Shown: in pieces, positions 23,719 through 38,115 of the stretch
Position numbering within the stretch: the stretch's first letter is position 1
Layout of the letters: each line of letters begins with the position of its first letter
Assembly (NCBI RefSeq): GCF_000190735.1
Contig: NC_015177.1
Coordinates: 434,001-498,000 of the forward strand
Direction of reading: 5' to 3'
Origin: Pseudopedobacter saltans DSM 12145
GTDB taxonomy: Bacteria; Bacteroidota; Bacteroidia; Sphingobacteriales; Sphingobacteriaceae
DNA: 64,000 nucleotides
Position numbers and translations under genes: made by a program
The notes under the pieces: generated by a model
What the model was told of the DNA's origin: nothing
Databases searched by the model: none
Seen by the model: only the letters and a program-made list of their open reading frames with translations

Positions 23719-23732
23719 ATGACATTCCTCAT
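23719..23732. promoter_or_regulatory. Weak FNR/CRP-like palindrome upstream of ccoNO
   Basis: ATGACATTCCTCAT keeps the TGA-N6-TCA core of FNR/CRP sites, with poor outer bases. Its centre (23725.5) lies 51.5 bases before the first base of the -7 box at 23777. That is exactly the spacing of the better site upstream of the dehydrogenase-hemN operon. On its own the match would be weak; the spacing is what makes it credible. Confidence 0.4.
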
Positions 23733-23776
23733 ATTTCTTAAAGATTCAAGTCATTCTATTGTCATCGGGGTTAGAA

Positions 23777-23784
23777 TAGCTTTG
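23777..23784 (+). promoter_or_regulatory. -7 box of the cbb3 oxidase operon
   Basis: TAGCTTTG is a perfect TAnnTTTG, 23 bases before the ccoNO ATG, predicting a start near 23791. No good -33 element was found at the usual spacing, which fits a promoter that needs an activator. Confidence 0.5.
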
Positions 23785-23807: not shown

Positions 23808-25922
23808 ATGCAACCTGACAAATTTTATTACGACAACAAAATTGTAAGGGATTTTGCCATTGCCACAATGGTTTGGGGGATTATTGGTATGCTTGTAGGG
23901 GTACTTGCAGCAACTCAATTATTCAATCCAGCGGCAAATTTAGGATCCCAATACACAACTTTTGGTAGAATCAGACCATTACATACAAATGCTGTGATTT
24001 TTGCATTTGTGGGTAACGCAATCTTTATGGGAGTTTATTATTCTCTGCAAAGATTGTTAAAAGCAAGGATGTTTAGTGACGTTTTAAGTAAGATCCATTT
24101 TTGGGGTTGGCAACTTGTTATCCTCTTAGCTGCTGTTACATTGCCTTTAGGATTGACCACTTCGCATGAATATGCTGAGTTAGAATGGCCGATAGATATT
24201 TTATTGACCTTAGTGTGGGTAACTTTCGGTATAAACATGTTTGGAACTATTTTTAAACGTAGAGAAAAACATTTGTATGTAGCTATTTGGTTCTATATCG
24301 CAACATTTGTTACCGTAGCTGTTTTGCATATTGTGAACTCAATTCAAATTCCGGTATCAGCTTTCAAAAGTTATTATTTATACGCAGGAGTGCAGGATGC
24401 ATTGGTACAATGGTGGTATGGACATAATGCGGTAGCATTTTTCTTAACAACACCTTATTTGGGTCTTATGTATTATTTCCTGCCGAAAATGGCAAATAGA
24501 CCTATTTATTCATATAAATTAAGTATACTACACTTTTGGTCTTTGATATTCATTTATATCTGGGCAGGGCCACACCACTTATTATATACTTCGTTGCCAG
24601 GATGGGCGCAGTCTTTAGGCGTTGCATTTTCTGTGATGTTAATTGCACCGAGTTGGGGAGGTATGATTAATGGGTTATTAACTTTAAGAGGTGCATGGGA
24701 TAAAGTGAGAGATAATGTAACCTTAAAATTTATGGTTGTTGCGCTTACTTGTTATGGTATGGCAACTTTCGAAGGTCCCTTACTTTCATTGAAAGAGGTA
24801 AATGCCATAGGTCACTTTACAGATTGGATTGTAGCTCACGTACATGTTGGCGCCTTGGGTTGGAATGGATTTTTAACCTTTGGCGTAATGTATTGGTTAA
24901 TACCTAGAATTTATAAGACAGAGCTTTATTCTAAAAAATTAGCATCTACCCACTTCTGGATTGGCACACTGGGTATCCTTTTTTATGCTATTCCAATGTA
25001 TTGGAGTGGTTTTACCCAAGGCTTAATGTGGAAGGAATTCACTGAAGAGGGTATGCTTAAGTATCCGGGATTCATTGAAACTACTTTGAGAATTATTCCA
25101 ATGCATATGTTAAGAGCTTTAGGAGGAGTAATGTATCTAAGTGGTGTGATTATAATGGCTTATAACCTGGTTAAAACTGCAAAATCTGGAAATCTGGTTC
25201 AACAAGAGTATGCAGAAGCGTTACCGTTGGTGGAAGAGAATCCTAAAGGCGAAACTGCACATAAAAAACTAGAGCGTAAACCAATTGCGATGTTGATAAT
25301 TAGCTTGGTGGTTATTTTAATCGGTGGAGTAGTAGAGATGGTACCTACCTTCTTTATCAGTTCCAACGTACCAACTATCTCAAGTGTAAAGCCTTATACA
25401 GCTTTAGAAATTCAAGGCCGTGATTTATATATTAAAGAGGGCTGTGTGAACTGTCACTCCCAAACGGTGAGACCTTTTAGAAGTGAAACAGAAAGGTACG
25501 GAGAATACAGTAAAGCTGGAGAATTTGTCTATGACCATCCGTTCCTATGGGGCTCTAAACGTACCGGACCGGATTTGCATAGGGTAGGAGGTAAATATAG
25601 TCATGCATGGCATTATAATCACTTAATAGATCCAGCTAGCATGACCCCTGGTAGTATCATGCCTTCTTATGAATGGTTGGCTGAACAGGAAATCGATACA
25701 ACTACAACGGCTCCTAAAATTAAAGCACTTAGAAGAATTGGAGTCCCATACGAGGAGGGTTTTGAGAAAATTGCAAATCAGGACTTATTGAAGCAGGCTG
25801 AAAAAATTGCTGCGGGATTAAAAGCAGACAATATCGAAGTGTCTCCGACATCAGAAATGGTTGCAATAATTGCTTACCTGCAAAGATTGGGAGTAGATAT
25901 TAAAGCAGAAAAGAAAAATTAG
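23808..25922 (+). CDS. ccoNO: cbb3-type cytochrome c oxidase, fused subunits I and II (CcoN-CcoO)
   Basis: A 704-aa fusion typical of Bacteroidota. Residues 1-460 are CcoN, with twelve membrane spans and the histidine ligands of haem b and the b3-CuB centre (RPLHTNAVIF, WWYGHNAVAFFL, GPHHLLYT, AHVHVGALGWNG). After another span (about 493-515), the CcoO part carries one covalent haem c site, CVNCHSQ near residue 547, and a methionine-rich MPSYEWL. The enzyme is a high-affinity terminal oxidase that reduces oxygen at low tension and pumps protons. It heads the operon. Confidence 0.95.
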   Translation: MQPDKFYYDNKIVRDFAIATMVWGIIGMLVGVLAATQLFNPAANLGSQYTTFGRIRPLHTNAVIFAFVGNAIFMGVYYSLQRLLKARMFSDVLSKIHFWGWQLVILLAAVTLPLGLTTSHEYAELEWPIDILLTLVWVTFGINMFGTIFKRREKHLYVAIWFYIATFVTVAVLHIVNSIQIPVSAFKSYYLYAGVQDALVQWWYGHNAVAFFLTTPYLGLMYYFLPKMANRPIYSYKLSILHFWSLIFIYIWAGPHHLLYTSLPGWAQSLGVAFSVMLIAPSWGGMINGLLTLRGAWDKVRDNVTLKFMVVALTCYGMATFEGPLLSLKEVNAIGHFTDWIVAHVHVGALGWNGFLTFGVMYWLIPRIYKTELYSKKLASTHFWIGTLGILFYAIPMYWSGFTQGLMWKEFTEEGMLKYPGFIETTLRIIPMHMLRALGGVMYLSGVIIMAYNLVKTAKSGNLVQQEYAEALPLVEENPKGETAHKKLERKPIAMLIISLVVILIGGVVEMVPTFFISSNVPTISSVKPYTALEIQGRDLYIKEGCVNCHSQTVRPFRSETERYGEYSKAGEFVYDHPFLWGSKRTGPDLHRVGGKYSHAWHYNHLIDPASMTPGSIMPSYEWLAEQEIDTTTTAPKIKALRRIGVPYEEGFEKIANQDLLKQAEKIAAGLKADNIEVSPTSEMVAIIAYLQRLGVDIKAEKKN

Positions 25923-26128: not shown

Positions 26129-27055
26129 ATGAAAAAATTAAGTTCAATATTTTTACTGTCAGCGTTAACTCTTAGTGCGGGAAATGCATTTGCAGAGGAA
26201 GAAGTGAAGATGGCAACAACGGAGTTGATGAACTATATAGGAGTGGCAGCGATTATTTCGACACTAGTGTTGGTGTTGATTGTTTGCCTTGTGTTATTGA
26301 AAACTTTCAGGGTGATGGCATCTATTTTATTGAAGGATGTAAAAGTGTCTGAAGTGAGTCCTATTCAAGAGCAATCATCGGTACAAGCAGTGCAGGAAAA
26401 ACGTACTTTTTGGCAAAAAGTACTTTCTTTGAGACCATTGTCAGAAGAAAAGGATTTGGTAATAGAACACGAGTTTGATGGAATCAGAGAGCTGGATAAT
26501 CCGACACCAGGGTGGTTTATGTATTTGTTCTATGCTACTATCATATTTGCAGTTGTTTATCTGTTAAATTTCCATGTGTTTAAATTAGGTAAGTTGCAGG
26601 ATGAGGAATACGTTGCAGAAATGGAGCAGGCGGAAGCTGCTAAAGAGGCTTTTCTGGCTAAATCTGCTAACAGGGTAGACGAAACAACCGTTACTTATTC
26701 GAATGATCCGGCGGTTATAAGTGCAGGGCAGGCCATTTTTAATAAAAATTGTGTAGCCTGTCACGGAGATAAAGCACAAGGCACCGTTGGACCGAATCTT
26801 ACAGACGATTACTGGTTACATGGGGGAACAATAAAAAATATCTTTAAAACCATTAAATATGGTGTTCCTGATAAAGGTATGATTTCGTGGGAAAAGCAAT
26901 TGACTCCTAAAGAAATAGCCGAAGTGTCAACTTATATAAAATCTCTTAGAGGATCTAACCCAAGCGGAGCGAAAGAGCCTCAGGGAGTGGAAGATAAGGG
27001 TGAGGAACTTGCCGGTGATGCAGCTGCACAGACAGAAACCGTAAAAGAAATATGA
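26129..27055 (+). CDS. ccoP: cbb3-type oxidase cytochrome c subunit III (CcoP), monohaem
   Basis: A 308-aa protein with a signal-like start, a membrane span at about 36-62, a linker, a second span near 128-150 after DNPTPGWFMYLFYATI (the FixP_N signature), and one cytochrome c domain with CVACHGD near residue 209 and GMISWEKQL supplying the methionine ligand. Proteobacterial CcoP has two haems; this one has a single CxxCH, as is usual in Bacteroidota. It passes electrons to the CcoNO core. Confidence 0.92.
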   Translation: MKKLSSIFLLSALTLSAGNAFAEEEVKMATTELMNYIGVAAIISTLVLVLIVCLVLLKTFRVMASILLKDVKVSEVSPIQEQSSVQAVQEKRTFWQKVLSLRPLSEEKDLVIEHEFDGIRELDNPTPGWFMYLFYATIIFAVVYLLNFHVFKLGKLQDEEYVAEMEQAEAAKEAFLAKSANRVDETTVTYSNDPAVISAGQAIFNKNCVACHGDKAQGTVGPNLTDDYWLHGGTIKNIFKTIKYGVPDKGMISWEKQLTPKEIAEVSTYIKSLRGSNPSGAKEPQGVEDKGEELAGDAAAQTETVKEI

Positions 27056-27131: not shown

Positions 27132-28523
27132 GTGGAAGAGATACAATATCATAGTACCGTACAGGCAGATGGAAAGAGAAGATGGTTATATCCATTAGTG
27201 AGAAAAGACAAGTTTTATACTTATCGTAGTTTGTTGGGATATAGTCTACTGGCATTCTTATTTGTAGCTCCTTTTGTAAAGATTAAGGGTAATCAGTTAT
27301 TGCTGATCAATATCATCGAAAGAAAGTTTATCATTTTTGGACAGGTTATCTGGCCTCAAGACTTTTTTATATTCGTATTGGCCTCTTTACTGGCATTAAT
27401 TAGTATTGTACTCTTTACCATCGCATTCGGTAGAGTCTTCTGCGGATGGGTTTGTCCTCAAACTATTTTTTTAGAGCTCGTATTTCGTAGAATAGAAATT
27501 TGGATAGAAGGTGAACCAGCAGCAAGAAAAAAGCTGGACGAAAGTCCATGGACAGCAGAGAAGATCTGGAAGAAATCTTTAAAACATGGTCTATATATTC
27601 TGATTTCCTTTTTAATTGCTAACACTTTTTTAGCATATGTCATCGGAAGTGATGAGCTGATTAAAATTATGACTTCTCCGCCACAAGATCATCTGGTTGG
27701 TTTTATAAGTATATGGTTGTTCACTTTTACTTTTTATGCTGTTTTTAGTCATGTAAGAGAAATTGTTTGTACAGTTATTTGCCCTTATGGTAGATTACAA
27801 GGGGTTTTATTGGATAAAAATTCATTAACCGTAGCCTATAATTATGTAAGAGGAGAGCCAAGAGGTAAGTTAAAAAAGGGGATTGATACTGAAACAAAAG
27901 GAGATTGTGTTGATTGTAATCTATGCGTGGCTGTTTGCCCAACCGGAATAGATATCAGACAGGGTACACAGCTGGAATGTGTGAACTGTACAGCATGTAT
28001 CGATGCATGTAATCAGGTAATGGATAAGATAAATAAACCGAGAAACCTGATTGGCTACTATTCTGAAGAAATGATCAAAACGAATAAGAAACCGGAGTTT
28101 TCTTTTAGAATGAAAGCTTACTCTTTTGTTATTTTGGTTATGGTAGGTGTGATAGCGTATTTTATCTGGAATCAAAAAAATGTTGATGTTATTGTCCTGA
28201 GAGCTGGTGGAACACTTTACCAGGAGCAACAGGATGGTTACATCAGTAATCTGTACAATGGGGAATTTGTAAATAAGACTACCAAACCCGTAAAAGTCGA
28301 TATTGAGGGAGTGGATAAGAATGTCAAGATTAAATGGATCCAACCGGTGGATAGTTTAGCAAGAGAGAGTTCTAAAAAGGGAACCTTCTTCTTACTGATG
28401 CCTAAAAACAAAATTAACCAGGCTAAAAATGTAATCAAATTAAGGGTTTTAGAAAACGGACAAGAAACTTACGAGATAAAAACTAACTTTCTGGGACCTG
28501 TATCAAGAAAAATTAAAAAATAG
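27132..28523 (+). CDS. ccoG: Cytochrome oxidase assembly ferredoxin-like protein CcoG (RdxA/FixG)
   Basis: A 463-aa membrane protein needed for cbb3 assembly; in other bacteria CcoG reduces copper for the oxidase. It has four or five spans, a NosR/NapH-like VFCGWVCPQTIFLE and EIVCTVICPYGRLQG, and two four-cysteine iron-sulfur clusters (CVDCNLCVAVCPTGID and CVNCTACIDACNQ, about 257-300). A periplasmic Ig-like domain ends the protein. The start codon is GTG. It is followed three bases later by fixH. Confidence 0.94.
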   Translation: MEEIQYHSTVQADGKRRWLYPLVRKDKFYTYRSLLGYSLLAFLFVAPFVKIKGNQLLLINIIERKFIIFGQVIWPQDFFIFVLASLLALISIVLFTIAFGRVFCGWVCPQTIFLELVFRRIEIWIEGEPAARKKLDESPWTAEKIWKKSLKHGLYILISFLIANTFLAYVIGSDELIKIMTSPPQDHLVGFISIWLFTFTFYAVFSHVREIVCTVICPYGRLQGVLLDKNSLTVAYNYVRGEPRGKLKKGIDTETKGDCVDCNLCVAVCPTGIDIRQGTQLECVNCTACIDACNQVMDKINKPRNLIGYYSEEMIKTNKKPEFSFRMKAYSFVILVMVGVIAYFIWNQKNVDVIVLRAGGTLYQEQQDGYISNLYNGEFVNKTTKPVKVDIEGVDKNVKIKWIQPVDSLARESSKKGTFFLLMPKNKINQAKNVIKLRVLENGQETYEIKTNFLGPVSRKIKK

Positions 28524-28525
28524 TT

Positions 28526-28939
28526 ATGAATTGGGGAAAAGGTATTGTAATCGGGCTGGCTGCCTTTATGAGTTTTGTTCTGTGCCTGGTAATACTAATG
28601 TTTAGGGCTCCGGACGATAGCTACGATGAAGATTACTATGAAAAAGGTTTGTCTTATGACAAGGAATATGGGCAAAAGCAGAATGTATTAGATGATAATG
28701 CTAAACCAAAAGTTATCATAGAAGATAAAAAGATAACCGTATCTTTTAATGGTCTGGATTCTGGAAAATTAACTTTTTATCGGCCTGCTAATAATAAATT
28801 GGATAGGATATACAAATTAAGTGAGGTACAAACGGAAATAGCCACAAATAATCTGGAAAAAGGCGAATGGAAGTTAATTTCTGAATGGCATTACAAAGGA
28901 AAGCCATATTTATACGAACAAAGTGTATTTATTCAATGA
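28526..28939 (+). CDS. fixH: FixH family protein
   Basis: A 137-aa protein with one N-terminal membrane span (about 5-27) and a small periplasmic beta domain. NWGKGIVIGLAAFMSFV and APDDSYDEDYYEKGLSYDKEY are characteristic of FixH/CcoH, which takes part in cbb3 oxidase assembly. It starts two bases after ccoG and its stop codon overlaps the next start (ATGA). Length is normal for Bacteroidota FixH. Confidence 0.88.
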   Translation: MNWGKGIVIGLAAFMSFVLCLVILMFRAPDDSYDEDYYEKGLSYDKEYGQKQNVLDDNAKPKVIIEDKKITVSFNGLDSGKLTFYRPANNKLDRIYKLSEVQTEIATNNLEKGEWKLISEWHYKGKPYLYEQSVFIQ

Positions 28940-29610
28940 ATCATTTGCAGTTAGCATTTATTATAGGACTTTTTGGAAGTTTACACTGTGTTGGAATGTG
29001 TGGGCCGTTGGCGTTTGCAATTCCTAATACAGGCAGTAGTAGATGGAGATTGGTGCTTAATAAATTTATTTACCAGATAGGGAGGGCGTTTAGCTATGCT
29101 ATTTTAGGCTTTCTAATTGGTATCATCGGTAAAAAGCTCTGGATAGCAGGATTTCAACAAACTTTAAGTGTACTATGCGGAGCTTTTATTGTCGTATATT
29201 CTATAATTAGATTGATTCCTTTGAGACGGAAATTCAATTCGAATTTTTCAATTATAAACGACTGGATTTCTAAAGCGATTCAGAAGCGTTACGGGCATTT
29301 TGTAGTTGGTTTATTGAACGGAATTTTGCCATGTGCTTTTGTCTATGTTGCATTAGCCACGGCGGTTAATACTACAAGCCCTGTTCAGTCTGCCTTATTC
29401 ATGTTCTTTTTTGGTTTAGGAACACTGCCTTTAATGTTCTCTGCTGCTGTAGGAGTAAGTTTTGCCGGACATAATTTGCGACGGTCAATTAACAATATTT
29501 TGCCAATATTATCGCTTCTTTTGGGAATTTGGTTTATCCTAAGAGGTTCGTCTTTAGATATCCCATTCCTAAGTCCTGTGTTAACCGGGGATTCTGCTAT
29601 TTGCAGGTAG
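28936..29610 (+). CDS. TauE/SafE-like (DsbD-type) membrane protein of the cbb3 operon
   Basis: A 224-aa membrane protein with six spans. The N-terminal GLFGSLHCVGMCGPLAFAIP and the mid-chain NGILPCAFVYVALA, each with a cysteine or cysteine pair, are the pattern of the sulfite-exporter TauE/SafE-like group found at the end of cbb3 clusters. It probably helps copper or thiol handling in assembly. I set the start at 28936, overlapping the fixH stop, rather than the longer frame from 28885. ccoI and ccoS, often beside these genes, are absent here. Confidence 0.82.
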   Translation: MNHLQLAFIIGLFGSLHCVGMCGPLAFAIPNTGSSRWRLVLNKFIYQIGRAFSYAILGFLIGIIGKKLWIAGFQQTLSVLCGAFIVVYSIIRLIPLRRKFNSNFSIINDWISKAIQKRYGHFVVGLLNGILPCAFVYVALATAVNTTSPVQSALFMFFFGLGTLPLMFSAAVGVSFAGHNLRRSINNILPILSLLLGIWFILRGSSLDIPFLSPVLTGDSAICR

Positions 29611-31284: not shown

Positions 31285-32646
31285 TTAACCTATACTGAAT
31301 AATTGTCTTTCCGGCTGCTTTCTCCAAAGTCTCATATCAAAGGCAGCGCAAATATTTCTAAGGAAACGTGTTCCTCTTTTGGTTACTTTTAGTGTGTAAT
31401 CATGTTTTTCGACCAATCCATCTTTTACAACTTCCTCCAGATTATCGAATGCTAAAGAAAATGAGTCATTCAATAAATCGATGTCATTCCATGTGGTTTC
31501 CCCATGACACATTATGTTTAAAATATGTTTTCGCATCAATAAATCCTCTGAATCTAATAAATGGCCTTTAAATACAGGAATAGTATCCTCAGCTATCAAT
31601 TGTTTATATTCTTCCACCGTTTTAACATTCTGTGCAAATGCATTCCAGGTATCACTGATTGATGACACACCGAGACCAATCATCAATTCTGTGTATTGAT
31701 GCGTATAACCCATAAAGTTTCTATGTAGGGTTTTGTTTTCCTGGGCATTAAATAAAGAATCAGATTTTAATGCAAAGTGATCCATTCCAACTTCTTCATA
31801 ACCGGCTTCGATAAAAAGTTTCCTACCAGTCTCATACAATTCCTGCTTGGCTTCTGTGTCCGGAAGATCAAGTTCTGTAAACATTCTTTGTCCCGGTTTA
31901 ATCCAGGGAACGTGAGCATAACTATAAAATGCAATACGATCGGGGCGAAGCTGATTTACCTGTGTAATAGTTTGGATCAATCCGCTTAGCTTTTGCAGTG
32001 GCAAGCCATAAATCAAATCGTAATTGATAGAAGTATATCCTATTTTTCTGGCGGTATTCGTAACATATTCAACCTGTTCATAACTTTGCATTCTATTGAT
32101 AACTTTCTGTACCTCTTTGTCAAAATCCTGAATACCCAGACTTAATCTTTTAAAACCTAATTTATAAAGTGTTTCGAGGTGTTGTTCTGTGGTATTTGCC
32201 GGATGTGCCTCGAAACTAAATTCGGCGTTGGAATGCAACTCACAATTTGTAAGTATTCCATTAATAAGCAGATTCAAATTTTCAGAAGAAAAGAAAGTTG
32301 GAGTCCCTCCACCTAGGTGGAGTTCTTTTACAATAGGTTTCTCATCGAAATTTAGTTTGTAAAGCTCCCATTCTCTGATTACTGCATTGATATATGGTAT
32401 TTCAACACTATGATTTTTTGTGATTCTGGTATTGCAGCCGCAATACGTACACAGATTTTCACAAAAAGGAAGATGGATGTATAAACTGATTCCAGATTCT
32501 TTATTGCTGGCAGTAAACGATTCTCTTACCGAGTTTATCCATTTATCGTAAGAAAAAGTGGTTTCATCCCAATAAGGAACTGTCGGATAGCTGGTATATC
32601 TGGGTACAGGAACACTATACTTTTTTATAAGTTCTGCTGTTTCCAT
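31285..32646 (-). CDS. hemN: Oxygen-independent coproporphyrinogen III oxidase HemN
   Basis: A 453-aa radical-SAM enzyme that decarboxylates coproporphyrinogen III in haem synthesis without oxygen. The 4Fe-4S site is C62-x3-C66-x2-C69 in PFCENLCTYCGCN; the glycine-rich LHLGGGTPTF and a HemN-type C-terminal domain follow. The length and the extra cysteine after the cluster (CGCN) favour true HemN over HemW. It is 13 bases downstream of the dehydrogenase gene, and the pair shares an FNR-like site, as expected for a gene used at low oxygen. Confidence 0.95.
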   Translation of the reverse strand: METAELIKKYSVPVPRYTSYPTVPYWDETTFSYDKWINSVRESFTASNKESGISLYIHLPFCENLCTYCGCNTRITKNHSVEIPYINAVIREWELYKLNFDEKPIVKELHLGGGTPTFFSSENLNLLINGILTNCELHSNAEFSFEAHPANTTEQHLETLYKLGFKRLSLGIQDFDKEVQKVINRMQSYEQVEYVTNTARKIGYTSINYDLIYGLPLQKLSGLIQTITQVNQLRPDRIAFYSYAHVPWIKPGQRMFTELDLPDTEAKQELYETGRKLFIEAGYEEVGMDHFALKSDSLFNAQENKTLHRNFMGYTHQYTELMIGLGVSSISDTWNAFAQNVKTVEEYKQLIAEDTIPVFKGHLLDSEDLLMRKHILNIMCHGETTWNDIDLLNDSFSLAFDNLEEVVKDGLVEKHDYTLKVTKRGTRFLRNICAAFDMRLWRKQPERQLFSIG

Positions 32647-32659
32647 AATTTAATGAAAT

Positions 32660-33661
32660 TTAATGTTTAGTAGCGCAATCATTAGGACACGCACATGCTT
32701 TGCCAACGCATTTTCTGGCTTGCCAATTGTCTAGATTTCTGATTGTCTGGAAAGCAATTTCTTCTATTGTTTCTTTAGTCAGGAGAGCCTGCCTGGGTGT
32801 AATAATGACATTTGATAAGCTAAGAAGTTCTTCATAAATGGGGTTGCGGACAGTATTACCTTTGTCTTCTGAAAATATAAATATATCATTTTCAAAAATG
32901 TCGGCACCCAGATAACCCAACTGTCCGCTTTTTAAAGCATCTAAAACGTCTGAGATATTTAATAACCCGCCCCGACTCGTGTTAATAAGCATTACCCCAG
33001 ATTTCATTTTATAAATGCTTTCCCTATTTATAATTTTATCTATCTTGTTTTTGAATGAAACATGCAGAGATATTATATCTGAATTTTCGAGTAGATAATC
33101 CAGATCACAGACTTCCCCATACTCAGGCATTTTTAATAAAGTTTTATCAGCAATCAGTACCCTGCATCCAACATTATGAAATAATTTTGAAGTCGCTAGA
33201 CCTGTATCACTATAGCCTATTAAGCCAATAGTTTTACCTTTTAGATTAAAGCCGGTTAACCCCTCGAGATTGAAATCTGAATGAGATATTCTTTCAATAG
33301 TGGTAATTAGATTTCTACTTAAAGCCAAAACTAAAGTTAGTACATGTTCTGCAACGCTATCAGATGTGTAAGGCACATGAGCTATTTTTATTCCGTATTT
33401 TGCAGCGGTGTCCCGGTTTATATTTTCCACATCGCCAGAGCGTGTGGAAATGTATTTGATTCCAAACTCAGCAAGCTTATCTATTACCGGGGTGGATAAA
33501 TCATCATTACAGGATACAATAACAGCGTCTTTACCTTCTGCATAAGAAACTGTTTCGATATTCAGCGGATTTGAAATAAGCGTAATATCGTGTTTCTTAA
33601 AATTAGCTTTAGCTAATAGTTCTTTCTCAAAAGTTTTAGTGCTGTAAACGATAGCTTTCAT
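32660..33661 (-). CDS. D-2-hydroxyacid dehydrogenase (D-lactate dehydrogenase-like) with Cys-rich tail
   Basis: A 333-aa NAD-dependent enzyme of the D-isomer 2-hydroxyacid dehydrogenase family. It shows SVAEHVLTLVLALSRN, the nucleotide-binding GKTIGLIGYSDTG, LHVSFKNK and MLINTSRGGLLN; the overall pattern is closest to D-lactate dehydrogenase (LdhA). The normal domain ends near residue 310. The last 16 residues hold four cysteines (C318, C323, C325, C329), unusual in this family. It is first in the operon with hemN, under an FNR-like site, so a fermentative role at low oxygen is inferred. Confidence 0.85.
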   Translation of the reverse strand: MKAIVYSTKTFEKELLAKANFKKHDITLISNPLNIETVSYAEGKDAVIVSCNDDLSTPVIDKLAEFGIKYISTRSGDVENINRDTAAKYGIKIAHVPYTSDSVAEHVLTLVLALSRNLITTIERISHSDFNLEGLTGFNLKGKTIGLIGYSDTGLATSKLFHNVGCRVLIADKTLLKMPEYGEVCDLDYLLENSDIISLHVSFKNKIDKIINRESIYKMKSGVMLINTSRGGLLNISDVLDALKSGQLGYLGADIFENDIFIFSEDKGNTVRNPIYEELLSLSNVIITPRQALLTKETIEEIAFQTIRNLDNWQARKCVGKACACPNDCATKH

Positions 33662-33681: not shown

Positions 33682-33689
33682 CAAATCTA
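33682..33689 (-). promoter_or_regulatory. -7 box of the dehydrogenase-hemN operon
   Basis: TAGATTTG on the minus strand matches TAnnTTTG; transcription would start near 33675, 14 bases before the ATG. A normal -33 element is not evident, consistent with activator dependence. Confidence 0.55.
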
Positions 33690-33733
33690 TTTACAGGGAT
33701 ACCTTTTTTTAATGAGAGCTGTCAGTACGAAAT

Positions 33734-33747
33734 GTGATAAATATCAA
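33734..33747. promoter_or_regulatory. FNR-like operator upstream of the dehydrogenase-hemN operon
   Basis: GTGATAAATATCAA matches the FNR consensus TTGAT-N4-ATCAA at 9 of 10 defined bases. Its centre is 51.5 bases upstream of the first base of the -7 box, about 65 bases from the predicted start, a class I activator position. The likely binder is the receiver-CRP fusion encoded next door. It lies in the 325-base gap 33662-33986. Confidence 0.6.
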
Positions 33748-33961: not shown

Positions 33962-33988
33962 TAAAAAAAACGGTACACAGGTACCGTT
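33962..33988 (-). terminator. Terminator overlapping the stop of the receiver-CRP gene
   Basis: AACGGTAC (33969-33976) pairs with GTACCGTT (33981-33988) around ACAG. On the minus strand seven T residues follow. The stem begins inside the stop codon of the regulator gene. Confidence 0.85.
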
Positions 33989-35036
33989 AATTTTTTAGAT
34001 TTTTCAGTTTTTCTATGTTTAGGAGGTTGATTTCTGAACCTTTCTTTTCTATAAGCTTCTCTTCTTTAAAATCACTTAAAGTGCGGCTTACTGTTTCTGT
34101 TGCCATGCCGGCCATCCCTGCCAGATCATCTCTGGATATTTTAAATACATTACTTTGCTGATGGATATCGTTTATCCGCAAAAGCGTTTCGGCCAATCTC
34201 TTTCTTACAGAATGATAAGCCAATTGCACCAGTTGCTCGTCTTTTTCCTTCAATGTTTCCGCTAAAAGATGAATGAACTGCATGGCTATCATGGGATGCT
34301 TATTGATCATTTCATTAACCTGGTCCTTATCTAACAAGCAAATAGAACTGTTCTCAAGTGCTTCGGCAGTTTCTGAATGCGATCGGCCAATCAAAGCGTC
34401 ATAAATTCCAAAGTATTCATCCGCATGGTGAATATCTATTAAAAGTTCCCTGCCATCTTTACTTAATTTTACTATTTTAACACTGCCACTCAGCACAAGG
34501 TATACACCCTGAGAGTTGTCTCCATCATAATAAATAACCTGGCCTTTCTTAATGTTCCTTATTTTTTTATGCGAAATTAACTCTGTCAGTTCTTTTTGCT
34601 GGTTATTCTTTTTAGCAAAATCTTCTAAAGATTGTAACCCTTTTGAATAGAAGTCTTTTTGCTGTTTTCTTTTCTTTAATCGGCTTTCAATGGCATTTAA
34701 TAGTTCGATATCATCAAACGGCTTTGTTAAATAGTCATCAGCACCCATTTCCATACCTTTTCTAAGGTCAATCCTTTCAGCCTTAGCTGTCAGGAATATA
34801 AATGGAATAGATGCTGTGTCCGGATTTTTTCCTAAAAGGTATAAAACACCATAACCATCCAATTCAGGCATCATAATATCGCAGATAATTAAATCCGGAA
34901 GATTATTTTGTGCCATTTCAACCCCTGCTTTTCCGTTTGGAGCTGTCAATACTTCATAACCGGCAAGTTCCAGTATTTCTGCTGTGCCTTCTCTGATATC
35001 CAGATTATCTTCTATGATAAGTATTTTATTCTTCAT
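33987..35036 (-). CDS. Response regulator fused to a CRP/FNR transcription factor
   Basis: A 349-aa single chain. Residues 1-120 are a CheY-like receiver with phospho-acceptor Asp53 (LIICDIMMPELDG), T83 in FLTAKAE and K105 in LTKPFDD. After a linker (125-150), a cyclic-nucleotide-binding fold follows (about 160-275, GQVIYYDGDNSQGVYLVLSGSVKI) and a CRP-type winged helix (about 290-345, ISRDDLAGMAGMATETVSRTLSDFKEE). It thus joins FixJ-like input to FixK/FNR-like output. No FNR-type cysteine cluster is present at the N-terminus. It overlaps the kinase gene by 11 bases, so it is its likely phosphorylation partner. Confidence 0.92.
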   Translation of the reverse strand: MKNKILIIEDNLDIREGTAEILELAGYEVLTAPNGKAGVEMAQNNLPDLIICDIMMPELDGYGVLYLLGKNPDTASIPFIFLTAKAERIDLRKGMEMGADDYLTKPFDDIELLNAIESRLKKRKQQKDFYSKGLQSLEDFAKKNNQQKELTELISHKKIRNIKKGQVIYYDGDNSQGVYLVLSGSVKIVKLSKDGRELLIDIHHADEYFGIYDALIGRSHSETAEALENSSICLLDKDQVNEMINKHPMIAMQFIHLLAETLKEKDEQLVQLAYHSVRKRLAETLLRINDIHQQSNVFKISRDDLAGMAGMATETVSRTLSDFKEEKLIEKKGSEINLLNIEKLKNLKN

Positions 35037-36222
35037 GGTGGTTTAGCGTGATAGTAAATGTTGTTCCTTTATTTTCTGCACTTTCAAAAGAGATTGTGCC
35101 ATTCATCAATTGTACATATCTGTCAACAATATTCAGACCTAAGCCCGTACCGGGAATGCTACCAGTATTGTGCGCTCTAAAAAAAGCTTCAAACAAATGT
35201 TTCTGCTCCGTTGCAGGAATACCTATTCCATTGTCCTTTATCATAATAATACATTTTTTATTAAGCATTTCGGTATTAAATTCGATAAAAGTATTTTCTC
35301 CAGAGTATTTTATCGCATTTCCGATTAAATTGACGATACAGTTTTTAAGAAGGTTGAGATCTGTCGTGATTTTGCTTTTTGTACCCGTATGCTGATAAAT
35401 GATATTTTGGTTCTGTTTTGCAACCATTTGCATTTCTTCAGTAATTTCTTCAGCAAATTTTACAATATCGAAAGTACTTATTTGAGTCTCAATTTTTCCG
35501 GCCTCCAGCCTTTCCAGCGAAAGGAAATCGTTTAAAATATTTGTTAAATTTCCAACGTTAGATTTAATCTTGCTAACATGTTTGCTAATACTGTCATTTC
35601 CATATTGGGAGTTGTATTTCTCGATTAAAGAAGCAGACAGTTGTATCGCACTTAAAGGAGTTCTGAACTCATGCGAAGCCATCGAAACAAACCTGCTTTT
35701 TAACTGATTAAGCTCTTTTTCTTTTTCCAGTGAATTGCTAACTTCTTCTTTAGCGTGTTGTAACTGTTTAATTAAAGACTGAAGCGTTAAAGTTCTTTCT
35801 TCAACCAAATGCTCTAATCTGTTGGTATATTTTTTTAGCTGTTGTTCAGCGTCTTTTTCTCTGCTTAGGTCATGAATAAAGCCTGTATAAATTATCCTTC
35901 CATGAAATTGAACCTCACTCACAGCAAGCCGGAAAGGGAAGAGAGAGCCATCTTTTCTAAGCCCTTTTACTTCACGGCCTATTCCGATAATATGTGGCTC
36001 TCCAGTCTTTTGATAACGATGAAGATAGCCGTCATGTCTGGACCGGTCAGGTTCAGGCATTAGCATGCTGATATTATTGCCTATTACTTCAGAGGGTGTA
36101 TATCTGAATAAACTGCAAGCCGAAGGATTAATCGATTCGACAATTCCGTTGGAGTCTATAGTGATAATTCCATCTATTGCGGTGTCGATGATTGCGTTAA
36201 GTAAAGAAATCTGATCCATCAT
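35026..36222 (-). CDS. FixL-like haem-PAS oxygen-sensor histidine kinase
   Basis: A 398-aa soluble kinase. The PAS domain (about 8-125) strongly resembles that of rhizobial FixL: SRHDGYLHRY, then EPHIIGIGREV and GLRKDGSLFPF. His63 aligns with the haem ligand His200 of Bradyrhizobium FixL, and His77, Ile78 and Arg83 align with distal-pocket His214, Ile215 and Arg220. A coiled coil (125-175) leads to the HisKA domain with His184 (ASHEFRTPL) and a HATPase domain (NLIGNAIKYSG, DNGIGIP, GTGLGL). No membrane span. It overlaps the receiver-CRP gene, forming a two-gene operon. Confidence 0.9.
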   Translation of the reverse strand: MMDQISLLNAIIDTAIDGIITIDSNGIVESINPSACSLFRYTPSEVIGNNISMLMPEPDRSRHDGYLHRYQKTGEPHIIGIGREVKGLRKDGSLFPFRLAVSEVQFHGRIIYTGFIHDLSREKDAEQQLKKYTNRLEHLVEERTLTLQSLIKQLQHAKEEVSNSLEKEKELNQLKSRFVSMASHEFRTPLSAIQLSASLIEKYNSQYGNDSISKHVSKIKSNVGNLTNILNDFLSLERLEAGKIETQISTFDIVKFAEEITEEMQMVAKQNQNIIYQHTGTKSKITTDLNLLKNCIVNLIGNAIKYSGENTFIEFNTEMLNKKCIIMIKDNGIGIPATEQKHLFEAFFRAHNTGSIPGTGLGLNIVDRYVQLMNGTISFESAENKGTTFTITLNHHEE

Positions 36223-36277: not shown

Positions 36278-36291
36278 GTGATCTTGATCAT
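36278..36291. promoter_or_regulatory. FNR-like operator in the divergent gap
   Basis: GTGATCTTGATCAT has the palindromic GTGAT-N4-ATCA(T) form, 8 of 10 defined FNR positions. It lies between the kinase operon and the divergent 593-aa gene. For the plus-strand gene a near-consensus box TTTATTTG (36314-36321) is placed so that the site centre is about 43 bases before the predicted start, the usual class II activator position. Confidence 0.55.
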
Positions 36292-36333
36292 ATTTTATTT
36301 TCATGATTTCCGATTTATTTGTGTCATAGTTTA

Positions 36334-38115
36334 ATGATTATGTCACATACTTTCCATATCCCCGTTTTAGGTTTAGCATTTTCTGTTGATACGCCACTTA
36401 AAGTTGCTAAGTACGGAATTTCTTCTGTAGCATCAATTGTAGATGATCAATTGGTCGAGCGAATGAGAAAATATCATTTAGAAAAAAATGGTAAGGTTTA
36501 TCAGGAAATCAGTTTAAAAGAACCCGATTTCCGTTCAAAAAGAATTACGGAATATCTTAATATGATGGATGATTTTGTAAATGAACAGTTCGAAAACCTA
36601 AAAGCTGAAAACTTTGAAAACGGAAAAGACATCAATCATTATTTCAATCTACTGCCGGATCGGTCTTCTTTAAAGCAGGCATATATCGATATGATGAAAG
36701 AGAAAGACCTGGTATTGAAACATCGATTACAGTTAAGGCTGAAAGAAAGCATGCAAAAAGGCGCTATAGATGTAAATATTATGGCCAAAGTGGACAAATT
36801 AAACTTTAATAAGAGCGGAGAAGAAGTTAATTCTGATGCTTTAGAAGCGTTAAAAGGCTTTGCGTTAAGTAAGCTAAATTCTTCTGTTGTATTATCCGCG
36901 GGAATGAATCAGCGTTTGTATGCTTATATCGAAAACTTTAGGGATTTCTACCCCGATTTGGTTGGAAATATCAGAAAACGGGTCATTTTGAAAGTAAGTG
37001 ATTTCAGATCGGCTCTTATCCAGGGTAAAATGCTGGCAAAAAAAGGGCTATGGATTTCGGAATTTAGAATAGAGTCCGGACTAAATTGTGGAGGCCACGC
37101 GTTTGCAACTGAAGGCTATTTACTGGGCCCCATCCTGGAAGAATTTAAGCAAAAGAAAGATAGCATGCTGCAGGAGCTTTTTGCTATTTATGAGAAGGCG
37201 CTTGAAGAAAAAAATATAAAAATAGAGTCGAGGCCTATGTCTAAAATCAGCGTTCAGGGAGGAATTGGTACTGCAGAAGAAGATAATTTCCTGTTAGAGC
37301 ATTATCAGCTAGATGCAACAGGATGGGGGAGTCCGTTTCTATTAGTGCCAGAGGCGACAAATGTTGATGAACAAACATTAAAAGATCTGATCTGTGCCGA
37401 CAGGAACGATTTTTATATCAGCGGATCTTCTCCATTAGGAGTGCCTTTTAACAATTTCAGACTAAGCTCTGTAGAAAAACTACGTCAGGAAAGAATAGAA
37501 AAGGGGAGACCTGGAAGTCCTTGTACAAAGAAATACCTTGTATCAAATACCGAGTTTACAGAGGAACCAATATGCACTGCTTCAAGGGAATATCAAAACT
37601 TAAAAATAAAGTCTCTGAAAGAATCAGACTTGTCAGAAGAGGAGTACCAACGGGAATTTCAACAGGTAACAGAAAAAATCTGTCTGTGTGAAGGTCTGGT
37701 GACTTCCGCTTACATAAAAAATGATATGTTAAAGCCCAAAGAAAATAAGGCAGTAGCCATATGTCCGGGACCGAATATCGCTTATTTCTCAGGAGAATTC
37801 ACCTTAGAAGAAATGGTTAAGCATATCTATGGTAAAGTGAATTTACTAAGCGGTTCCAATAGATCTAATATTTTTATTAACGAATTAAGTCTTTATGTAG
37901 ACTACCTGAAAAAGGATATTAGTAATAGTCTCAAAGATTTAAACGACAAAAAGGTAAAGTATTTTTCTAAGTTTCAGCAACAATTAGAAAATGGGATTGA
38001 TTATTATAAATCATTAATCCCTGCTATTCATAATCAAACGGATATTTATAAGAAGAGAATGATGGATGAATTGCTGGAGTTGGAGACAAAACTGCTGAAA
38101 ATGAAATTGGCCTAA
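36334..38115 (+). CDS. Large cysteine-rich protein of unknown function, possible TIM-barrel flavoenzyme
   Basis: A 593-aa soluble protein that I cannot assign to a named family. The N-terminus (IPVLGLAFSVDTPLKVAKYG) and a later SVQGGIGTAEED (about 306-317), with ATGWGSPFLLVPEAT after it, recall nitronate monooxygenase-like FMN TIM barrels, but a 200-residue helical section lies between. Cysteines cluster in the second half (C397, C414, C450, C452, C477; also C252 in LNCGGHAF). The C-terminal 90 residues are helical. It is divergent from the FixL-type kinase across an FNR-like site, so it is probably made at low oxygen. The start could also be 36340. Confidence 0.7.
   Translation: MIMSHTFHIPVLGLAFSVDTPLKVAKYGISSVASIVDDQLVERMRKYHLEKNGKVYQEISLKEPDFRSKRITEYLNMMDDFVNEQFENLKAENFENGKDINHYFNLLPDRSSLKQAYIDMMKEKDLVLKHRLQLRLKESMQKGAIDVNIMAKVDKLNFNKSGEEVNSDALEALKGFALSKLNSSVVLSAGMNQRLYAYIENFRDFYPDLVGNIRKRVILKVSDFRSALIQGKMLAKKGLWISEFRIESGLNCGGHAFATEGYLLGPILEEFKQKKDSMLQELFAIYEKALEEKNIKIESRPMSKISVQGGIGTAEEDNFLLEHYQLDATGWGSPFLLVPEATNVDEQTLKDLICADRNDFYISGSSPLGVPFNNFRLSSVEKLRQERIEKGRPGSPCTKKYLVSNTEFTEEPICTASREYQNLKIKSLKESDLSEEEYQREFQQVTEKICLCEGLVTSAYIKNDMLKPKENKAVAICPGPNIAYFSGEFTLEEMVKHIYGKVNLLSGSNRSNIFINELSLYVDYLKKDISNSLKDLNDKKVKYFSKFQQQLENGIDYYKSLIPAIHNQTDIYKKRMMDELLELETKLLKMKLA

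Follow-up and report, generated by a model that had tools for sequence, protein, structure and literature searches.

In rhizobia, the targets of the FixL-FixJ-FixK pathway include the cbb3 oxidase and hemN genes. The recognition helix of FNR reads E..SR, and receiver-Crp proteins are a known, rare output type among response regulators. In Bradyrhizobium, FixL-FixJ-FixK targets include nos genes, as one report states (PMC6710368). A further described arrangement, the hFixL-FxkR-FixKf cascade, is reported as a FixL-type sensor working with a response regulator other than FixJ, FxkR, which acts via a separate FixK (PMC4999443). A search of mostly open-access papers turned up no account of a FixL-type kinase that is paired, in Bacteroidota, with a receiver-Crp protein. 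Here we analyze such a pair in a 64,000-nucleotide stretch of the genome of Pseudopedobacter saltans DSM 12145 (hereafter the window, in whose numbering coordinates are given). On strong sequence evidence, one gene of the overlapping pair appears to encode a haem-based oxygen sensor and the other a fused switch able to bind DNA directly; the two would accomplish in one step what takes three proteins in root-nodule bacteria.

The kinase, its receiver-Crp partner and their neighbors

The sensor kinase (398 aa; 35026-36222, minus strand) and the receiver-cNMP fold-Crp fusion (349 aa; 33987-35036, minus strand) overlap by 11 bp, as an earlier note on this DNA had described. Pfam matches in the kinase are PAS (1.8e-18, from residue 8), HisKA (8e-15) and HATPase_c (3.5e-26), and its phospho-acceptor is His184, in the motif SHEFRTPL. 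The fusion matches Response_reg (4.6e-28), cNMP_binding (6e-20) and HTH_Crp_2 (3e-17), confirming that a receiver with Asp53, a cNMP-like fold and a CRP helix-turn-helix are joined in one chain. These E-values and the conservation of the pair exclude chance as the source of the gene-pair pattern.

Pfam and alignment delimit the receiver (34686-35024, minus strand; Asp53 codon at 34878-34880) and the Crp-type helix-turn-helix (33996-34202, minus strand). Residues D10, D53, T83 and K105 of the receiver site are invariant in 23/23 aligned fusions, the window's included, and provide the Asp/Thr/Lys set of a two-component response regulator, with Asp53 as the acceptor. E314 and R318 of the FNR-like recognition helix ETVSR (E314, S317, R318) are also kept in 23/23. 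The FNR-type cysteine set is absent from the fusion and, because the 23 aligned proteins carry 1-4 Cys each, one being receiver C52, no FNR cluster is expected in it. The protein has the features of a FixK-like regulator (Crp/FNR family without iron-sulphur cysteines, FNR-like helix) and lacks the [4Fe-4S] cysteine ligands of FNR, in contrast to the stand-alone FNRs of relatives. In an AlphaFold model (mean pLDDT 81, pTM 0.41), the receiver ends in a long helix and is joined by a Crp fold, which has a long helix of its own (residues 248-291), and by the helix-turn-helix; the pTM makes the relative placement of these parts unreliable. Among the best 80 of 584 matches, the nearest named relatives of the fusion are from Pedobacter psychrophilus (66% identity) and a Sphingobacteriales MAG (64%). 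The genome of the window encodes a second receiver-Crp protein (G000:C1:1046604-1047656), 39% identical and with an E..IR helix; neither of the two open frames of at least 150 aa in the 3.2 kb around it is a kinase. Across relatives, the recognition helix is E..SR in 51/52 pairs whose kinase has a FixL-type PAS versus 0/41 other pairs, 40 of which have E..IR. This association may reflect a single event inherited by one clade.

All within 13 kb of the pair are the genes for a fused CcoN-CcoO of cbb3 oxidase (23808-25922), CcoP (FixP; 26129-27055), CcoG (FixG; 27132-28523), FixH (28526-28939) and, at the end of the cbb3 cluster, a DsbD_2 membrane protein (28936-29610), each on the plus strand, and for HemN, the oxygen-independent coproporphyrinogen III oxidase (31285-32646, minus strand; TIGR00538, 433 bits against a cut-off of 325). 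A 2-hydroxyacid dehydrogenase-like gene (32660-33661, minus strand) is the first of the predicted operon before hemN. Its motifs mark it as decaying, with TPR in place of TPH and an eroded nucleotide motif. At loci L246 and L248-L251 this gene encodes just 134-158 aa, with both ends kept and the NAD-binding middle gone, and some of these shortened versions have a Cys-rich tail like KCxGKACAC. Divergent from the kinase is a gene for a 591 aa protein (36340-38115, plus strand), a predicted regulon member with several Cys motifs; searches of Pfam and NCBIfam gave no hit for it, and the PDB none with an E-value below 0.06. Among the named loci from the best 80 of 584 matches (flanks of up to 10 kb), cbb3 genes lie near 18/37 FixL-type versus 15/32 other pairs, and hemN near 25/37 versus 4/32. 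The gene for the 591 aa protein is near the pair in 14/37 FixL-type and 0/32 other named loci of this set.

Promoter dyads and their candidate readers

FNR-type dyads (TGA-N6-TCA) are positioned 29 and/or 51 bp before TAnnTTTG ahead of the cbb3 oxidase, hemN and nosZ operons, the last located elsewhere in the genome. We take TAnnTTTG to be the Bacteroidota -7 element, which would place the near dyad at about -41, a class II position. The predicted tandem promoter at 33682-33746 (minus strand), 20 bp before the dehydrogenase-like gene, has two dyads 22 bp apart followed by TAGATTTG. At the predicted cbb3 operon promoter (23720-23784, plus strand), a dyad lies 51 bp upstream of TAGCTTTG and the near dyad matches incompletely. 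The predicted promoter of the divergent gene (36279-36321, plus strand) has its dyad 29 bp upstream of TTTATTTG, a variant -7 element; the same dyad also precedes the kinase gene, about 56 bp from its start. Thus, the 29/51 geometry is present at the cbb3 and dehydrogenase-hemN operons of the window, with a variant element at the divergent gene, and is absent before its kinase gene.

To compare promoters across loci, we split the named loci (best 80 of 584) by recognition helix into 44 with E..SR plus the window and 36 others. For the E..SR group, an unbiased search of 2304 dyads, scored when present in at least 4 regions, ranked TGAT-N4-ATCA first upstream of the kinase, where it is in 18/39 regions against 0.4 expected, and upstream of the dehydrogenase-hemN genes, with 12/36 against 0; for ccoN, where it is in 2/13, it did not rank first. 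In the same group, TGA-N6-TCA precedes ccoN in 11/13 regions (shuffled mean 1.6), the dehydrogenase gene in 30/36 (4.3), the kinase in 27/39 (4.9) and the divergent gene in 13/15 (2.0); for internal genes, the counts are 4/19 for ccoG, 2/14 for DsbD_2, 6/28 for hemN and 11/44 for the fusion (shuffled means 1.7, 1.3, 3.3 and 4.8). Pairs of dyads at 22-bp spacing occur in 25/88 E..SR regions and 16/46 others (shuffled means 0.02 and 0); of the 13 E..SR regions before ccoN, none has such a pair. Dyad centers 28-30 or 50-52 bp before TAnnTTTG gave 66 pairs against a shuffled mean of 0.10, in 43/103 upstream regions of the E..SR group. These 103 regions are not independent, since the kinase and the gene divergent from it have a single intergenic stretch between them and the genomes are relatives of one another. 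The same geometry was found in 0/105 internal-gene regions of this group and 1/60 of the other; it precedes the kinase in 6/39 regions of the E..SR group. Loci with the E..SR helix and the other loci do not differ clearly in the sequence of their sites. The strict FNR box TTGAT-N4-ATCAA, tried as a candidate site, shows no enrichment in the window (8 found against 7.1 expected) and is at most weakly enriched before the kinase (6/39 with one mismatch allowed, 2.1 expected).

Searched against the whole genome, the 65-bp distal pattern has 4 matches and its reversed control 0; the matches are the cbb3 and dehydrogenase-hemN promoters and two sites that fall within opposite-strand open frames of 391 and 153 aa. 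The 43-bp proximal pattern, with 5 matches against 3 in the control, is noisier; it marks sites before dehydrogenase-hemN, hemA, a pirin gene and a cytochrome c gene followed by Sec-type nosZ, and one inside an open frame. In a scan of relatives that may have read loci ended by contig ends at the wrong offset, the nosZ site recurred in 6/17 genomes having nosZ (control 0), and hemA was rejected as a conserved target (site in 1/30 genomes). The full tandem pattern has 36 matches in 41 genomes and 0 in the reversed control. Within the family, it is found in 14/17 genomes with a FixL-type PAS versus 0/8 without; one match in each of the 14 precedes the dehydrogenase gene (G007 has three more), and in 14/17 FixL-type members the tandem promoter follows a fusion gene at a distance of no more than about 300 bp.

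Upstream of ccoN, 23/24 genomes examined have a dyad no more than 500 bp away, with the exact geometry in 9/24. Among the 23 are three genomes without a full fusion at E<=1e-30 (G021, G026 and G028), the ccoN region of G026 carrying both tandem and composite. All three have stand-alone FNRs, with CX2CX8C N-termini in G021 and G026. Dyads are therefore best seen as sites of FNR-type proteins in general, and neither they nor the tandem composites prove that the fusion is the regulator. Receiver bridging as the sole cause of the 22-bp tandems is likewise unsupported, because G026 and G040 have tandem composites and no full receiver fusion was found in them. Given that such sites occur in relatives with stand-alone FNRs and no fusion, the switch may have taken over an existing FNR regulon.

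These genomes also bear on who reads the dyads in P. saltans. That another Crp/FNR-family protein is the main reader, leaving the fusion with other targets, we consider rather unlikely. The three fusion-less genomes would be compatible with it, as would further short Crp-like proteins in the genome of the window, three with E..SR near the end. However, a stand-alone FNR query returned from that genome only the two receiver fusions at E<=1e-20, making the fusion the best candidate reader, and the tandem promoter that accompanies the fusion in most FixL-type family members is missing in 8/8 members without a FixL-type PAS.

Sensor domain, kinase core and spread of the pair

The PAS domain of the kinase (residues 8-118; 35869-36201, minus strand; His63 codon at 36034-36036) has as its closest PDB match the haem PAS of Bradyrhizobium FixL (chain 1dp6, E 1.9e-33, gapless); the haem PAS of DosP is among the weaker matches. 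The earlier note had equated His63, His77, Ile78 and Arg83 with the FixL haem residues His200, His214, Ile215 and Arg220, and all four do align without gaps, in the FixL numbering that we take to apply to this chain. Arg69, Leu99 and Val101 likewise match Arg206, Leu236 and Ile238 in that numbering. His77 was nonetheless ruled out as a haem marker, being His in only 30/52 FixL-type kinases and Arg or Lys in 6/6 alphaproteobacterial FixL-like kinases examined. Conservation in the FixL-type kinases, a set of 52 that includes the window's and counts one genome twice (L020, L039), is 51/52 for H63, 50/52 for I78, 50/52 for I79 and 52/52 for R83, which makes these four a better diagnostic set than His77. 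L99 and V101 are invariant in 32 aligned rows, 4 of them alpha FixL-like. The domain thus has the axial His, distal Ile/Leu/Val and Arg of a FixL-type PAS. The axial His alone is no proof of haem, because related kinases with a non-FixL PAS (41 in all) keep it too, in 34/36 aligned.

In the RxMG-type PAS of non-FixL partners such as L099, the axial His is conserved and residue 79 is Met in 33/36 aligned; among PDB entries, 10jx matches the L099 PAS best. At locus L060 (Dyadobacter sp. CECT 9623) a FixL-type PAS has Gln for the axial His, and the E..SR partner is kept. In L014 (G013) the kinase reading frame is broken right behind the PAS; the interruption may be genuine or may stem from a sequencing error.

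The conserved pocket also weighs on what the kinase senses. A haem-binding PAS that responds to NO, CO or haem redox state, the pair controlling nitrogen-oxide or redox responses, would accord with nosZ as a predicted target in 6 of the 17 genomes having it and with the presence of the pair in G018 and G019, which have no full-length FixO; this is improbable, however, in view of the conserved FixL distal pocket and Arg220 equivalent, and of best conserved targets (cbb3 and hemN) that are classic low-oxygen genes. That the PAS lacks haem, and senses something else or merely dimerizes the kinase, is very improbable: it would suit the axial His of the non-FixL class and the Gln of the Dyadobacter pair, but runs against the pocket-wide identity to FixL, the retention of H63 together with I78, I79 and R83, and the PAS tree.

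In that tree (91 rows) the window PAS groups with alpha FixL-like PAS domains (SH-aLRT 100), and in the core tree (99 rows) the window core groups with other Bacteroidota kinases, the alpha FixL-like kinases standing apart (SH-aLRT 100); both trees were quick, the first from few columns and the second with long branches. Identities follow the same division. The window PAS shares 41-54% identity with the PAS domains of six alphaproteobacterial FixL-like kinases and 4-37% with those of 41 other Bacteroidota kinases (the lowest values are failed alignments), and the core is 22-24% identical to the six alpha FixL-like kinases and 42-58% to other Bacteroidota receiver-Crp partners. Against the FixL equivalog NF041777 the kinase scores 176 bits, far below the cut-off of 850. 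The simplest reading, leaving aside its direction, is a sensor-domain swap that made the kinase a mosaic. With only its sensor domain of FixL type and a Bacteroidota core, the kinase would work like FixL without being its orthologue.

Fusion matches at E<=1e-30 occur in 31/41 relatives and reach class level; those of G028 and G040 are partial, so the full fusion is in 29/41. A FixL-type PAS (threshold, E about 1e-42 or better) was found in 18/41, with the fusion present in 18/18 and adjacent by coordinates in 17/18; G032, whose PAS matched only weakly (30% identity, E 9e-20), was left out. In G025 the FixL-type PAS is, by eye, on another kinase core within the same gene run as the fusion. This operon-like run (L143) encodes two universal stress proteins (by eye), the FixL-type PAS on the other core, a single receiver, a receiver-kinase and the receiver-Crp protein. 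Of the best 80 of 584 fusion matches in named records, 37 adjoin a FixL-type PAS kinase and 32 another kinase; the 11 with no usable adjacent kinase were dropped before counts, as were 6/30 loci of the 41-relative scan. The kinase is directly upstream of the fusion in 99/110 loci, the window's own included. Named FixL-type hosts in the best 80 include Pedobacter, Mucilaginibacter, Arcticibacter, Daejeonella, Parapedobacter, Sphingobacterium and some Flavobacterium. The fusion is thus more widely spread than the FixL-type kinase, and the partner PAS differs in many relatives. Within the family, 14 genomes have both a FixL-type PAS and full-length FixO (partial matches were not scored as cbb3), three have the FixL-type PAS without full-length FixO, 1 has FixO alone and 7 have neither (p 0.0017). 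We found no mutual exclusion of stand-alone FNR and the FixL-type pair, several genomes carrying both.

Relation to described oxygen-sensing systems

Together, these observations make it likely that the pair is a two-gene oxygen switch, in which a haem PAS kinase and a receiver-FNR fusion would activate microaerobic genes at low oxygen. We infer that the kinase PAS holds haem and that bound oxygen turns the kinase off. At low oxygen, the kinase would autophosphorylate at His184 and pass the phosphate to Asp53 of its partner. Once its receiver is phosphorylated, the fusion would be licensed to bind TGA-N6-TCA dyads through its FNR-like domain, a domain that lacks an iron-sulphur cluster. With the dyads placed as for a class II activator, the phosphorylated fusion would turn on the cbb3 oxidase and hemN genes, nitrous oxide reductase being a probable further target.

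A broader scenario is also conceivable, if unlikely as a whole. Receiver-FNR fusions with haem-PAS kinases would have replaced iron-sulphur FNR across much of Bacteroidota, the older His-bearing PAS class also being a haem oxygen sensor; in one lineage a FixL PAS would have been exchanged for the older domain, the recognition helix changing with it; and phosphorylated receivers would bridge two dimers on 22-bp-spaced dyads, so that respiration and nitrous oxide removal come under steep, one-step control by oxygen. If the two-gene switch holds, genes, sites and promoter geometry can be named for a concrete circuit of low-oxygen control in Bacteroidota, one that would link oxygen with the cbb3 oxidase and, in certain genomes, with nitrous oxide reductase of the Sec type. 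Such a circuit would also be a natural single-step oxygen switch usable for engineering and a case of sensor-domain swapping coinciding with a change of the DNA-recognition helix.

The view of the earlier note that the pair is a condensed FixL-FixJ-FixK circuit is supported in silico by the pocket, the pairing, the FNR-like helix, the cbb3/hemN linkage and the promoter geometry. It needs qualifying in that only the sensor domain is FixL, on a Bacteroidota core, and in that the dyads are not exclusive to genomes with the fusion. Like the pathway of rhizobia and Caulobacter, the pair has a FixL-type haem PAS on a histidine kinase, by sequence, and an FNR-like output without an iron-sulphur cluster, with cbb3, hemN and nos as predicted targets. 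It differs in the distance of its kinase core from six alpha FixL-like cores (22-24% identity) and in a single fusion that would cover the roles of both FixJ and FixK. Its partner is a receiver-cNMP-Crp protein rather than the receiver and LuxR-type helix-turn-helix of FixJ, and the Crp part is fused to the receiver instead of being a separate FixJ-controlled FixK gene. Given this partner and core, the pair is not a member of the FixL-FixJ-FixK system despite its similar predicted working. The hFixL-FxkR-FixKf cascade, as far as its report outlines it (PMC4999443), shares the FixL-type sensor and a response regulator other than FixJ, but in the window the Crp/FNR domain sits inside the response regulator. 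FNR and FnrN share the Crp fold, the E..SR helix and sites of the TGA-N6-TCA type with the fusion, which lacks the FNR cysteine set and would receive its oxygen signal as phosphate from the haem kinase. Closest in architecture are the Bacteroidota receiver-Crp regulators with RxMG-type PAS kinases, which have the same fusion design (42-55% identity), the same kinase core class and similar dyads, and differ in their PAS (4-37% identity, the lowest values being failed alignments) and in the E..IR helix of 40/41.
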